Positions 12,204-17,415 of a DNA stretch of 60,042 nucleotides are shown one piece after another (position 1 is the stretch's first letter; every line of letters begins with the position of its first letter). The stretch comes from Nitrososphaerota archaeon (lineage in GTDB: Archaea; Thermoproteota; Nitrososphaeria; Nitrososphaerales; Nitrosopumilaceae). A model generated the notes under the pieces. That model worked only from the letters and a program-made list of their open reading frames with translations, did no database searches and had not been told where the DNA came from. Made by a program: the position numbers and the translations under genes. The stretch covers positions 1 to 60,042 of the forward strand of contig JAGWFS010000010.1 in the NCBI GenBank assembly GCA_028867785.1. Direction: 5' to 3'.

Positions 12204-14861
12204 TTATCCAGACGTGCATCCGCTGTATCCGCATTCGATGCAGATGTTGCAGCCTTCTGCAAACACAAGTGTGTTTTTGCACGCGGGGCACAGCCTCTCC
12301 TCGATCTGTTCAGCAGTGAGTTTTGGTTGCGGTTGCGTGACGTCAGATTCCGGGATCTTGATTGCAAGTGCCTTTTCCACCTGGCTTCTCAGGTAAGAGT
12401 TTGTAATGTTCTTTGAGATATAGTCAGTCACGTACACACTTGGAGTGACCTGAAATGTCTTCTGCACGTTGTCGCCTGTCATGTGAAGCACCTGTTCGTG
12501 TCTTGAGCCGTCTCGAAATACAGTGATTCCCTTCAGTCCAAGCTCGTGAGCCAGGAGATATGATGCCTTGACGTCATCTGATGATACGTCGTTTGGCATG
12601 TTGATTGTCTTTGCAATCGCATTTCCAATCCACCTCTGCCACACCCCCTGCGCCATGAGGTGATCAGCCCAGTGAATATCCATGGCAGTGACAAAGATTT
12701 TCTGTATCCACTCTGGAATTTCTTCAATGCCCTTTACCGAGCCATAGTTATTTGCAATTTTCTCCAGTATCTGGTCGTTGTATAGCCCGTGCTCTTTTAG
12801 AACCGACTCGAATATCTTGTTTGTATAGAAGAACCTGCCCACTGTCACCCTCTTCTCAAAGACAAGTGCAAACATTGGTTCCATTCCGTTAGAACAGTCT
12901 GCAATCATTGACAGTGTTCCGGTCGGTGCAACCGTAGTAGTGAGTACGTTTCGGATTCCGTGCTTTTGGATCTTTGCTATCAATGCGTCCCAGTCATATG
13001 TGCGAGTGTTTCTTGGCTTTTCATAGTATCCAGCCACCGGGATTTTTCCTTCCGGATATTCCGTTTTTGAGCACAGAGGGAACGGTCCTCTTGTTTTTGC
13101 AAGCGCAACGCTTTCTTCCATGGAATAGTAGGTCAGCGCTTCGGCCAATTTCTCCTGGAATTCGTACCCCTCTTTGGAATTGTACGGTATGCGTAGCTTG
13201 AACATCAAGTCTGCAACGCCCATCACCCCCAGTCCTATTCTTCTAGAGTCCTTTGATGCCTTGTCTATTTCTGAGATTGGATAGTTGTTTACATCGATTA
13301 TGTTGTCTAGGAATCGGGTTGTTTTTCGAATTGTCTCTTCATATCTTTGCCAGTCAAATTCGTATTGTCCATCCGCCTTTCTCTTAACAAAGTTAGCTAG
13401 ATTGATCGAGCCCAGATTGCATGACTCGTACGGATACAGGCTTTGCTCACCGCAAGGATTTGTTGCACGCAGTGGTGCGCCCCTGGCCTTTGCAAATACG
13501 TTGTACTTGTTTATCATGTCAAAGAAGATCAGTCCAGGTTCCGCACTCTTCCATGCAGAGAGAGCTATCAAGTCAATCAGGTGATGAGCGTTTACCTCAC
13601 GCACAGGAGTCTTGTCAACAGGGCTTCGCAGTGTGTATTTGCCATCTGCTGAATTTACAAGTGCTTCCCAAAAGTCCTCCCAGACTCCCACACTTACGTT
13701 AAAGTTCTCCAGAATGCCCGGCTTTGTCTTTGCAGTGATAAATTTCTCAATGTCTGGGTGCCATGCCTCTATGATTCCCATGTTTGCACCCCTTCGCTTG
13801 CCTCCCTGCTTGACGACTTCTGTGACAGTGTTAATTATGTTCATGAAGGAGACCGGTCCTGATGCAACGCCAGATGTCGATGCAACCATGTCTCCCTCTG
13901 GCCTCAAATCTGAATAGTTGATGCCTACACCGCCGCCTGACTTGAATATCAGGGCGGCATCAGAGGATGATTTCATTATTTTTTCCATGTCGTCTGGCAT
14001 TCCAAGCACAAAGCACGCAGAAAGCTGCCCAAGTCTTGCTCCTGCGTTCATCATTGTGGGCGAGTTTGGCAGGTAGTCCTGGGAGGCCATCATTTCATAG
14101 TATTCGCGGATTCTTTCCCCGTATTGCTCAAATCTGTTAGCGGCAAGCATTGTAAGGAACTCTTTTACGCCAACCTTCATCTGGCCCTTCTTGGCCAGGT
14201 CAATGTAATGCTGTATCAGCGACCTAAAGTGATACTTGTTGAGGTAATACCTGCCTATCTTGAATTTAAAGTCAAAGTCATCAAGCTTGTCCATATAGCG
14301 TTCTGCGTCCTCTGTGTTCTGGGCCTGTGCACGTTCTGCACTGAAGACTAGCGGATCTTTGAGCACGTCTGATATTCCAACCAGCATTGCAACTCTTTCA
14401 AACATCTGGCCTGGACTTTCGTTTATCTGTCCCTTGTTGTTTTTAAGCAGATATCTAGAAGCCAAAACTCTGAGGCAGTTGAGATCAAATTTCTTGGCGA
14501 CAGAGTCCAAGGATTCTGACTCGAGTACCTTCATCTTCTCCTCTCTAAGTCTTCTGCGCTCATGTCTGTACAATATGTATGCCTTGGCAATCTCTCCCTG
14601 TCCTTCGTCGATCAAGGTTGATTCCACCATGTCTTGAATGTCTTCGACGCTTGGCGACTCGGAAGAAGAGTAACCGTGGTTTACAAGTTTTTCAAGAACA
14701 CGGTTTGATAGCTTATCTGCCAGTCCGTGATCCGGTTTGCCGCATGCGATTAATGCTTTATAGATCGCATTTGAAATTTTATCTTTTTGGAACGATGATA
14801 CTCGACCGTCGCGCTTCTTAACATTGATGATCGTGTTCTCTATTTGTGAAAAATCTGTCAT
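12204..14861 (-). CDS. nrdJ: Adenosylcobalamin-dependent (class II) ribonucleotide reductase
   Basis: An 885-aa enzyme that reduces ribonucleotides to deoxyribonucleotides using a 5'-deoxyadenosyl radical from vitamin B12. In order: an ATP-cone for allosteric control (VKKRDGRVSSFQKDKISNAI, residues 13-100); the barrel with PTMMNAGARLGQLSACFVLG (first active-site Cys region) and GGGVGINYSDLRPEGD; the finger loop with NPCGEQSLYPYESCNLGS (radical Cys in the NPCGE context); the late barrel strand with APTGTLS; and a C-terminal Cys-rich end (CPAC, CNIC, CGYSGC) thought to take part in re-reduction or zinc binding. Length fits archaeal NrdJ. A TATA-like TTTATA about 22 nt upstream suggests a leaderless mRNA. 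Its upstream neighbour in the same direction is the NrdD-like regulator. Confidence 0.95.
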   Translation of the reverse strand: MTDFSQIENTIINVKKRDGRVSSFQKDKISNAIYKALIACGKPDHGLADKLSNRVLEKLVNHGYSSSESPSVEDIQDMVESTLIDEGQGEIAKAYILYRHERRRLREEKMKVLESESLDSVAKKFDLNCLRVLASRYLLKNNKGQINESPGQMFERVAMLVGISDVLKDPLVFSAERAQAQNTEDAERYMDKLDDFDFKFKIGRYYLNKYHFRSLIQHYIDLAKKGQMKVGVKEFLTMLAANRFEQYGERIREYYEMMASQDYLPNSPTMMNAGARLGQLSACFVLGMPDDMEKIMKSSSDAALIFKSGGGVGINYSDLRPEGDMVASTSGVASGPVSFMNIINTVTEVVKQGGKRRGANMGIIEAWHPDIEKFITAKTKPGILENFNVSVGVWEDFWEALVNSADGKYTLRSPVDKTPVREVNAHHLIDLIALSAWKSAEPGLIFFDMINKYNVFAKARGAPLRATNPCGEQSLYPYESCNLGSINLANFVKRKADGQYEFDWQRYEETIRKTTRFLDNIIDVNNYPISEIDKASKDSRRIGLGVMGVADLMFKLRIPYNSKEGYEFQEKLAEALTYYSMEESVALAKTRGPFPLCSKTEYPEGKIPVAGYYEKPRNTRTYDWDALIAKIQKHGIRNVLTTTVAPTGTLSMIADCSNGMEPMFALVFEKRVTVGRFFYTNKIFESVLKEHGLYNDQILEKIANNYGSVKGIEEIPEWIQKIFVTAMDIHWADHLMAQGVWQRWIGNAIAKTINMPNDVSSDDVKASYLLAHELGLKGITVFRDGSRHEQVLHMTGDNVQKTFQVTPSVYVTDYISKNITNSYLRSQVEKALAIKIPESDVTQPQPKLTAEQIEERLCPACKNTLVFAEGCNICIECGYSGCTSG

Positions 14862-14894: not shown

Positions 14895-15089
14895 TAAATA
14901 AAGTCTGCGGCAAAATTTTTTTTCCCATTACTGAGCTTTGCGTCAATTTTGTTGACACCATTCCAATTTTCATGGTAATAGATCGATTAATGCCAATATA
15001 ATCGTAAAAGAATTTTTTAAAAATTTCTGAGCGGATTTGGAAGGATTTTTGAATTTTTTATCTGTTGATGTTTTACCGTAAAAATGGAC

Positions 15090-17192
15090 TTAGGCAAACA
15101 TGTAAGGTGATTTGCAGACCGGACATTTTTCTGCAGTCTTTTCTTCCTTGAGTCCGCAGTTGCCACATATGGGCACCCTCTTGACTGGCCTAAATGAGCC
15201 TAACAATTCCCCCGCCTTTTCTATTGCCTTCTTGATTCCAGAAGAGTCCATCGTGTCTGGAATCTTGAGCTGTACAAGCAGTCCCCCGTTGAGCATCTTT
15301 GAGAGGTGGTTAGATTCCGCTATTTTCTCGCTCTTATGAGTCATCTCTTCCATCTCCGAGGCGTCAACAATGACTCCCTCCGAGTATGATTCCCCTTCCA
15401 CGTGTGGATGGATTGACATTTTGCCATACTTTTCGCCGTCCAGTGAAGAAAAGCGAGAAGCCGCATCGCTTTCAGTTATGGAAATGGTAACGTTATCACC
15501 CATCTCCTTTCCCTTTTTGGCTGCCACTTCAATAGCAGTAGCCACAACTTTTGCCAGAATTTCCTGTCCAGCCTTGTTATTCTCATAGCCCAGAATACCG
15601 TACACCGCCTCCTTGAGTCCTATCAGGTTAACAACCAGCGTTACTGATCCCTTTTGCATGTACTGCGTGTTGTTTGCAAGAATGGGGTTAAGTCCCCTTC
15701 TAGTGTGATCTGATATCTCCTTCTTTCGTAATGACATTGCTGCAAGAGCTGGCTTCATTAGCAACGCCAGTCTTGCTCTAAAGTAAGTCTCGTCTTTGTT
15801 TGATTCAAATGCAAGTCGCGGCATGTTAATGGACAGGGACTGCAGGTTGATCGATGTAGATGACGAGTTCTTTCCGTCTCCCTTTGAGAGTCCCTTGTTT
15901 GATGCCAGTCCCTTTGAGAACATTACGCGTCCTCCCAACGAAATGGTTTCTGCAAGAATGCCGGAGAAGTCGCTAATCTTTGCTTTTTCATAGTCCACTA
16001 TGATTCCTACGGTAGGCACGGGTGTGGACTTGACATAGTTTTTGTATGCAGCAAGAATAGCTCCAACGATTTTCGGCTCAGTGGCCAGTGGAATTCTAAA
16101 TGATGCAAGTGTTTCGTCCTTTCCATATTTTGATACGGCGGATATTTTGGCAAAGGAATTTGCAAGTTTTTCTTCAATTTCTGAAATATTTTTCGAGTAT
16201 TTTTGTAGCAATACTACAAGGCCGTCCATAATTACCTCCTGAGAAGCTTCTTTGACAAGAAGCGATGCAGCAAGAGAAACGGAGGCAGCTAGCGTATCAA
16301 GAGAGTCGGCTGCAGGAGTTCTTGTCACACCTAGGAACTTGCCTCTGAGGTCAATTCCATCCTCTATGAGTTCCTTGATGTTGACAAATATGGCATCAGG
16401 CAGAAGAGACCACAGGCCTGCGTTTGTAATATGGATATCACCTGAGAGATGCGAGTCAGCAACATCCTTTGGTAGCGTATTCAATACCAGGTATTCTCCA
16501 AAAACTGTCTGTCCTGTCTTAAATAACAGGCCCTCTACGCCATTGTGAATACCGTCCACATTGGTGAGCATTTCATGTATATCGTACGCAGGAAGTCCAA
16601 ATCGTGCCAGTCTGTGCCTGTAATCCTCGTGGCCCTGTTCCAAAAGCACGGAATTGACCATTTCCCGTATTAGTGAAGAGGTAAGGTATGACGTCTGGAA
16701 TTTATATATGCGGTTCTCAACCTCTTCGGTTATCTTTTGTGCAAGCTCAAGAGGCAGGCTGCCTTCTCGAACCAGCGACTGGATTATCTTATGGGAGTTG
16801 AACTCCTCTATGGATTCATGGGATGTGCGTACGTACATCTTGCCGCTTTCAATGATCGAGCGTTCCTCGATCTGCCTGGCAAGACTTAGCACCAGTTTTC
16901 CCAGATTTGTAATAGTGTATCTTCGTTCAGACTTGTTTAAGGCTACAAGAGATTGGCGCAGTAGTTTTCTGAGGTGATAGGCAAATTTTCCGCTTTCTTT
17001 CTTTGACTTGAATCCGGCAAGGGACTTTAGTTCAGAATACGTAAGCGGGCCCTTGGAATTTAAGATTCTTAAAATGTCTATTCTGTTCGGGCTTGCCATT
17101 ACAGAAAAGATCATTCTTACACGTTTTGATGCAGATTGTAAAATGCCCCCGCGTTTTTGATCGCCAAAGTCTTCACTCAGTTCCATAGGCAT
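15090..17192 (-). CDS. HTH / ATP-cone / NrdD-like pseudoenzyme, probable nucleotide-sensing regulator
   Basis: A 700-aa protein of unusual architecture. Residues ~25-100 are an ArsR-like winged helix (MASPNRIDILRILNSKGPLT, then KFAYHLRKLLRQSLV). Residues ~120-205 are an ATP-cone (SHKIIQSLVREG, then RLARFGLPAYDIHEML). Residues ~205-670 resemble the body of anaerobic ribonucleotide reductase NrdD (GDIHITNAG where NrdD has GDIHIHD; NMPRLAFES; GLKEAVYGILG). Residues 676-693 are a zinc ribbon (CGNC, CPVC). These four are the only cysteines, so the catalytic Cys is missing, and the chain ends after the ribbon without the C-terminal glycyl-radical motif. It should not reduce ribonucleotides. It probably binds nucleotides and DNA, perhaps controlling nrdJ just downstream. 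A TATA-like CTTATTTAG about 26 nt upstream of the second Met (17186) supports that start. No activating-enzyme gene (nrdG) is nearby. Confidence 0.8.
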   Translation of the reverse strand: MPMELSEDFGDQKRGGILQSASKRVRMIFSVMASPNRIDILRILNSKGPLTYSELKSLAGFKSKKESGKFAYHLRKLLRQSLVALNKSERRYTITNLGKLVLSLARQIEERSIIESGKMYVRTSHESIEEFNSHKIIQSLVREGSLPLELAQKITEEVENRIYKFQTSYLTSSLIREMVNSVLLEQGHEDYRHRLARFGLPAYDIHEMLTNVDGIHNGVEGLLFKTGQTVFGEYLVLNTLPKDVADSHLSGDIHITNAGLWSLLPDAIFVNIKELIEDGIDLRGKFLGVTRTPAADSLDTLAASVSLAASLLVKEASQEVIMDGLVVLLQKYSKNISEIEEKLANSFAKISAVSKYGKDETLASFRIPLATEPKIVGAILAAYKNYVKSTPVPTVGIIVDYEKAKISDFSGILAETISLGGRVMFSKGLASNKGLSKGDGKNSSSTSINLQSLSINMPRLAFESNKDETYFRARLALLMKPALAAMSLRKKEISDHTRRGLNPILANNTQYMQKGSVTLVVNLIGLKEAVYGILGYENNKAGQEILAKVVATAIEVAAKKGKEMGDNVTISITESDAASRFSSLDGEKYGKMSIHPHVEGESYSEGVIVDASEMEEMTHKSEKIAESNHLSKMLNGGLLVQLKIPDTMDSSGIKKAIEKAGELLGSFRPVKRVPICGNCGLKEEKTAEKCPVCKSPYMFA

Positions 17193-17210
17193 GTCTACTT
17201 GGCATGCCTA
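17186..17210. promoter_or_regulatory. 8+8-bp inverted repeat over the start of the NrdD-like regulator gene
   Basis: TAGGCATG (17186-17193) and CATGCCTA (17203-17210) are exact reverse complements with a 9-nt spacer. On the minus strand the repeat runs from the downstream edge of the TATA-like box (about 17209-17217) to the presumed transcription start and first codons, a typical repressor site. Autoregulation by the encoded winged helix is the simplest reading. Confidence 0.6.
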
Positions 17211-17253
17211 AATAAGATTTATGACAGTCTGATCAGTGCGCAAGCTTTTTAGA

Positions 17254-17415
17254 TCAGTTCTTCTGGACGTCCACACTAAATTCTGACGACGACAGTGTCT
17301 TACCACAAGACGGACACTTACTATTATATGGCCTCATTACATCTTTGATCGATTTTAACATGCGCATGTTTGCTATTTTAGCCCCGCATTTATCGCATAC
17401 AACATCCACTGACAT
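17254..17415 (-). CDS. Small zinc-ribbon protein (53 aa)
   Basis: A short gene read directly from the gap: ATG at 17413-17415, TGA at 17254-17256. The product has two Cys pairs, VCDKCGAKI near the N-terminus and KCPSCGKTL about 24 residues later, forming a classic treble-clef or rubredoxin-like zinc ribbon. Between them is a basic, Met-containing helix (ANMRMLKSIKDVMRPYN) and a short acidic tail follows. A minus-strand TATA-like TTTATAAC centred 26 nt upstream of the ATG supports expression as a leaderless message. The function is not recognised. Such small ribbons often act as nucleic-acid or protein-interaction factors. It lies upstream of the NrdD-like gene in the same direction. Confidence 0.7.
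   Translation of the reverse strand: MSVDVVCDKCGAKIANMRMLKSIKDVMRPYNSKCPSCGKTLSSSEFSVDVQKN

Follow-up and report, generated by a model that had tools for sequence, protein, structure and literature searches.

Coupling the transcription of ribonucleotide reductase (RNR) genes to the nucleotide pool is the task of NrdR in bacteria. NrdR is a protein of 140-220 aa that binds DNA through its N-terminal zinc ribbon (PMC9110341). It is rare in archaea, and for this reason the control of RNR genes is unclear in most of them (PMC9110341). In this study, we analysed a 60,042-nt stretch of Nitrosopumilaceae DNA (the window), which encodes a protein that is termed here the pseudoNrdD regulator. It is well supported, and we hold with high confidence, that this protein is catalytically dead, derived from the class III anaerobic RNR (NrdD, PF13597) and equipped with a DNA-binding domain. 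That it is a transcription factor coupling RNR transcription to the nucleotide pool seems probable to us, in the absence of binding data. If true, an RNR body has been converted to a gene switch. Metabolic-enzyme folds are known to be reused as the ligand-sensing part of winged-helix transcription factors in MocR/GabR-type regulators, which join a winged helix to an aminotransferase fold. However, that fold is unrelated to RNR, and MocR/GabR proteins have kept their PLP cofactor. No description of a pseudoNrdD regulator family was found in the open-access literature (most subscription journals were outside the search).

The gene and its downstream neighbour comprise the following features.

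15090..17192, (-) strand: pseudoNrdD regulator gene (winged helix, ATP-cone, pseudoNrdD, zinc ribbon), 700 aa, from the ORF and Pfam
16872..17126, (-) strand: winged-helix domain, residues 23-107, from the Pfam match and its invariance in Nitrosopumilaceae
16584..16838, (-) strand: ATP-cone, residues 119-203, with a non-canonical VRTS replacing VKR, from Pfam (3e-9) and a residue map
15183..16583, (-) strand: NrdD-derived body, residues 204-670, catalytically dead, from the NRDD match (1.5e-25), Foldseek and the lost Cys/Gly columns
15852..15950, (-) strand: finger-loop region, residues 415-447, the expected place of the catalytic Cys, with no Cys and poorly conserved
15093..15182, (-) strand: C-terminal zinc ribbon CxxC-CxxC, residues 671-700, without a glycyl-radical tail after it, from cysteine positions and the alignment
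12204..14861, (-) strand: nrdJ, class II (B12) ribonucleotide reductase with an ATP-cone, the presumed target, as the sole PF02867 gene

The original prediction had read a winged helix, an ATP-cone, an NrdD-like body and a zinc ribbon in a single 700-aa chain, and Pfam confirmed this composition. Residues 28-102 match DUF7347 (2.4e-10) and HTH_20 (3e-8) above the curated cut-offs, residues 119-191 match the ATP-cone (3e-9), and NRDD (PF13597) is matched at 1.5e-25 with its best stretch at 419-695. DUF7347 and HTH_20 (ArsR-like) proteins are mostly small stand-alone regulators; the winged helix resembles theirs, but those proteins are not fused to an RNR body. The 700-aa ORF also bears out that the ribbon cysteines are the only ones (676, 679, 690 and 693, a predicted four-Cys zinc site without Zn-binding data), and the chain stops 7 residues past the last of them with no glycyl-radical segment. 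As had been predicted, nrdJ (14861-12204) lies directly downstream on the same strand; it has its own ATP-cone and is separated from the regulator by 228 bp. The best-matching named relatives are from Candidatus Nitrosotalea and other Nitrosopumilaceae.

With NrdD the protein shares the body fold, the ATP-cone, the C-terminal zinc ribbon and common ancestry, but it lacks the catalytic cysteines, the radical Gly and an NrdG partner, and an N-terminal winged helix has been added. With NrdR it has in common the combination of ATP-cone and zinc ribbon, the linkage to RNR genes and probably the task. In contrast to NrdR, it consists of a winged helix on a complete NrdD-like body, and its ribbon is C-terminal and inherited from NrdD. 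Assuming that the inferred regulation holds, the protein would work like NrdR, yet it is no NrdR: TIGR00244 was not among its NCBIfam matches.

The whole source genome contains no PF13597 gene besides the pseudoNrdD regulator and no PF02867 gene besides nrdJ, and no other class I/II RNR was found. The organism appears dependent on a single RNR. A search across this genome for NrdR (TIGR00244) found none. The predicted absence of nrdG from the neighbourhood also stood, and genome-wide nothing exceeded the curated cut-off of TIGR02491; only weak matches occurred (best 39 bits), located elsewhere.

A central part without an RNR fold would have refuted the original prediction. However, the 33 top matches of a Foldseek search against the PDB were all class III RNRs (NrdD), the best being 9d3x with E = 2e-18. 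The AlphaFold2 model was built on 49 sequences and has a mean pLDDT of 64. Its confidence is good over most of residues 311-440 and 520-690, whereas it is low for the winged helix and cone, where sequence variation in the alignment is nearly absent and cannot guide the model. A profile of 29 diverse relatives matched NrdD structures in the PDB at 5e-33 (9d3x), and in more distant family members the match spans the whole NRDD model (1e-52 to 1e-85).

Homologues with an intact radical Gly and catalytic Cys would likewise have refuted the original prediction, but the loss of the catalytic residues extends to the homologues, and none with the radical Gly was found. Forty-four family members were aligned with E. 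coli NrdD and five archaeal catalytic NrdDs, and none of the 44 has kept the residue corresponding to E. coli G681 (the radical Gly) or to C175. At the position of C384, the Cys is missing from the window protein and from all other members except three distant regulators (L047, L052 and L072), in which a Cys remains although the radical Gly is absent. Near the C-terminus, the motif R-[VIMLT]-x-G-[YF] was found in none of 170 family members and in all of 20 catalytic NrdDs from the same phylum, which had been picked by score and blind to the motif. We therefore do not regard the protein as an active NrdD, given the lack of radical Gly, active-site cysteines and an NrdG over cut-off. Distant copies retain a fossil tail (e.g., FSRISAKY vs WSRVTGYY of active enzymes), which is lost in copies from the window's order. 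If the protein is indeed a gene switch, such intermediates, with fossil tails and a replaced radical Gly, survive in living lineages and allow its evolution from an enzyme to be traced; it is possible that the three regulators with a retained Cys are themselves intermediates in the loss of function. The zinc cysteines are retained in 43 of the 44 aligned members, and members of a still more reduced group (535-602 aa) are without the zinc ribbon as well. One copy from the window's own family (L045:5818-7896) lacks the C-terminal ribbon and keeps the remainder as well as the nrdJ linkage.

It could be argued that the protein is still an enzyme with altered chemistry that obtains its radical from another source, as some conserved NrdD residues (N456, P458 and R459) are invariant in the family. 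We consider this very improbable, because neither of the active-site cysteines nor the radical Gly has survived, the finger loop is poorly conserved and there is no true NrdG.

The strongest constraint on the pseudoNrdD regulator was observed in its winged helix, which shows no difference at any of its 85 positions among 49 Nitrosopumilaceae proteins. Mean identity in the same proteins is 93% in the cone and 58-81% in segments of the body, with the finger loop ranking as one of the least conserved stretches. At fourfold-degenerate sites the mismatch is 0.52 in the winged helix vs 0.53-0.65 in the remaining gene, i.e., silent sites are saturated. As silent sites are about equally variable in the winged helix, its identity reflects selection on the protein. 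Such a frozen recognition domain would be expected of a regulator that has a fixed operator, for which DNA-binding data are not available. The same data bear on the idea of a decaying pseudogene. The catalytic residues are gone, and in at least one Nitrosopumilaceae genome (G311:C1:1756010-1758075) the gene is split into two frames, with an in-frame TGA. However, the gene is intact and strongly conserved across Nitrosopumilaceae, and the frozen winged helix and saturated silent sites demonstrate purifying selection at the protein level, so that decay is hardly conceivable.

In Streptomyces NrdR, mutation of V48, K50, E56 or K62 impairs nucleotide binding (PMC9110341). In the cone of the pseudoNrdD regulator V121, E129 and K135 match V48, E56 and K62, and K50 is replaced by T123, a point against a nucleotide-sensing role. 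Two catalytic archaeal NrdDs have the same VRTS cone, and it therefore represents a cone subtype and not plain decay. Sensing of dNTPs is plausible, but this rests on the domain make-up alone, without nucleotide-binding data. In the mechanism that we propose, the winged helix would bind DNA in the promoter region of nrdJ and perhaps in that of the regulator itself. The ATP-cone and the NrdD-like body would bind nucleotides instead of performing catalysis, with dATP/ATP at the cone, while the former RNR sites might accept dNTPs or NTPs. Binding would alter the shape or oligomeric state of the regulator, and RNR transcription might in this way follow the nucleotide pool. DNA binding, the identity of the ligand, repression over activation and nrdJ as the target are only inferred.

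The predicted linkage to nrdJ was found wherever it could be followed in Nitrosopumilaceae: in all 78 loci with a contig long enough to check, the next RNR gene downstream on the same strand is nrdJ, at a gap of 78-597 bp. It also follows the regulator in 13 of 13 further loci of the window's order (L033-L045), and in one of them (L040) it encodes a different, TSCPD-type enzyme without an ATP-cone. In other lineages the RNR is swapped. There, the gene immediately downstream of the regulator is a catalytic nrdD in at least six families, and in one other it is a TSCPD-type nrdJ. These lineages have a fixed locus, in which the regulator is followed by an RNR slot and then by pyrB (with or without pyrI), pyrB being usually convergent. 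The slot may be occupied by unrelated nrdDs or by nrdJ, or it may be empty. It is filled by nrdD in L047, L052, L189, L190, L191 and L195 and by nrdJ in L036 and L041-L044, in each case with pyrB just past it. L047 and L052 have sister regulators, yet the nrdDs in their slots are placed at opposite ends of the NrdD tree. In L191 (7889-10104) the neighbouring nrdD is in two overlapping frames with the RVTGF tail in the second, possibly a frameshift or an assembly error.

The swapping of the slot next to a constant regulator is the best evidence for control of RNR expression and for a functional link that requires no contact with any one enzyme. We consider it likely that the protein regulates transcription of the RNR gene, although regulation remains untested. 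The exchange also bears on a role through protein contact. RNRs act as dimers, and dead homologues often turn into allosteric partners. Together with the linkage to RNR genes, this would suit a pseudo-RNR subunit tuning NrdJ or NrdD by pairing with it, the winged helix being a protein-protein or dimerisation module. However, the linked enzymes vary in class and clade (NrdD clades and two NrdJ types) next to a constant regulator, which is hard to explain for a specific subunit, and the most constrained part is the winged helix. Such a role is thus considered unlikely.

Somewhat less unlikely, but still doubtful, is that the protein regulates a wider nucleotide or carbamoyl-phosphate network (pyrBI, argF and RNR), in which RNR is one part of the regulon. 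In the eleven loci with an empty slot, the regulator adjoins the convergent pyrB at a spacing of 1-49 bp, and it adjoins pyrI in L046, L063 and L064. In members of the derived group of 535-602 aa that has lost the ribbon (L177, L179 and L181-L184), it is divergent from a carbamoyltransferase that resembles argF and not pyrB. On the other hand, a convergent pyrB has no promoter in common with the regulator, and in the Nitrosopumilaceae loci pyrB was not seen adjoining, whereas nrdJ always is. Outside the window's order, most genomes have the regulator away from any RNR gene, and therefore its target may be wider. We favour a transcription factor acting on the RNR gene. For RNR control in ammonia-oxidising archaea, a very abundant group, the protein family provides a specific and testable candidate.

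Phylogenetic trees were calculated from the cone and body with the winged helix cut away and the longest branches dropped, and a separate quick version included all rows. One branch divides the family members from all catalytic NrdDs (ultrafast bootstrap 100, SH-aLRT 100), and the data therefore fit a single origin. Repeated origin of the regulator from a neighbouring nrdD is ruled out by the trees. The protein was matched in 284 of 398 genomes of the phylum, although the weakest of these matches might represent other ATP-cones. In viral contigs, the search gave only one match, which is distant and covers the cone and the start of the body. A contig titled Phycisphaerales bacterium (L129) holds a Nitrosopumilaceae-type regulator locus, probably due to contamination of that MAG. 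Whether we are dealing with an ancient archaeal family that arose once from a dead class III RNR, stayed faithful to its locus while the enzyme was exchanged across classes, and now serves as the standard regulator of RNR in much of the phylum, sensing nucleotide pools through retained allosteric sites of RNR, could in our judgement fall either way.

Two DNA elements flank the regulator gene.

14943..14974, (-) strand: conserved element CATGAAAATTGGAATGGTGTCAACAAAATTGA with a TCAA-N5-TTGA inverted repeat, 81 bp before nrdJ, a candidate operator without binding data
17209..17225, (-) strand: conserved promoter block GTCAYAARTCTTAWTTA, TATA-like with a conserved 5' extension, upstream of the regulator, from the upstream alignment

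Among 68 dereplicated Nitrosopumilaceae, the block at 14943-14974 (roughly TATGAANWTCATAGTANCGGTGTCAA-N5-TTGA) is the most conserved part of the intergenic region between regulator and nrdJ. It contains inverted repeats and is more conserved than the promoter and the ribosome-binding site. A regulon could not be derived from it, as the simple pattern GTGTYAA-N5-TTGA occurs genome-wide at near-background frequency. No motif was found that the promoter of the regulator itself has in common with the element before nrdJ, and the latter was not seen upstream of the regulator. An inverted repeat at 17186-17210, originally proposed as a binding site, is unconserved in relatives and had to be abandoned. 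Immediately upstream of the regulator and on the same strand, a 53-aa zinc-ribbon-like ORF is present at 17254-17415 (-) of the window, and a matching coding sequence was seen in the upstream alignment of many relatives.
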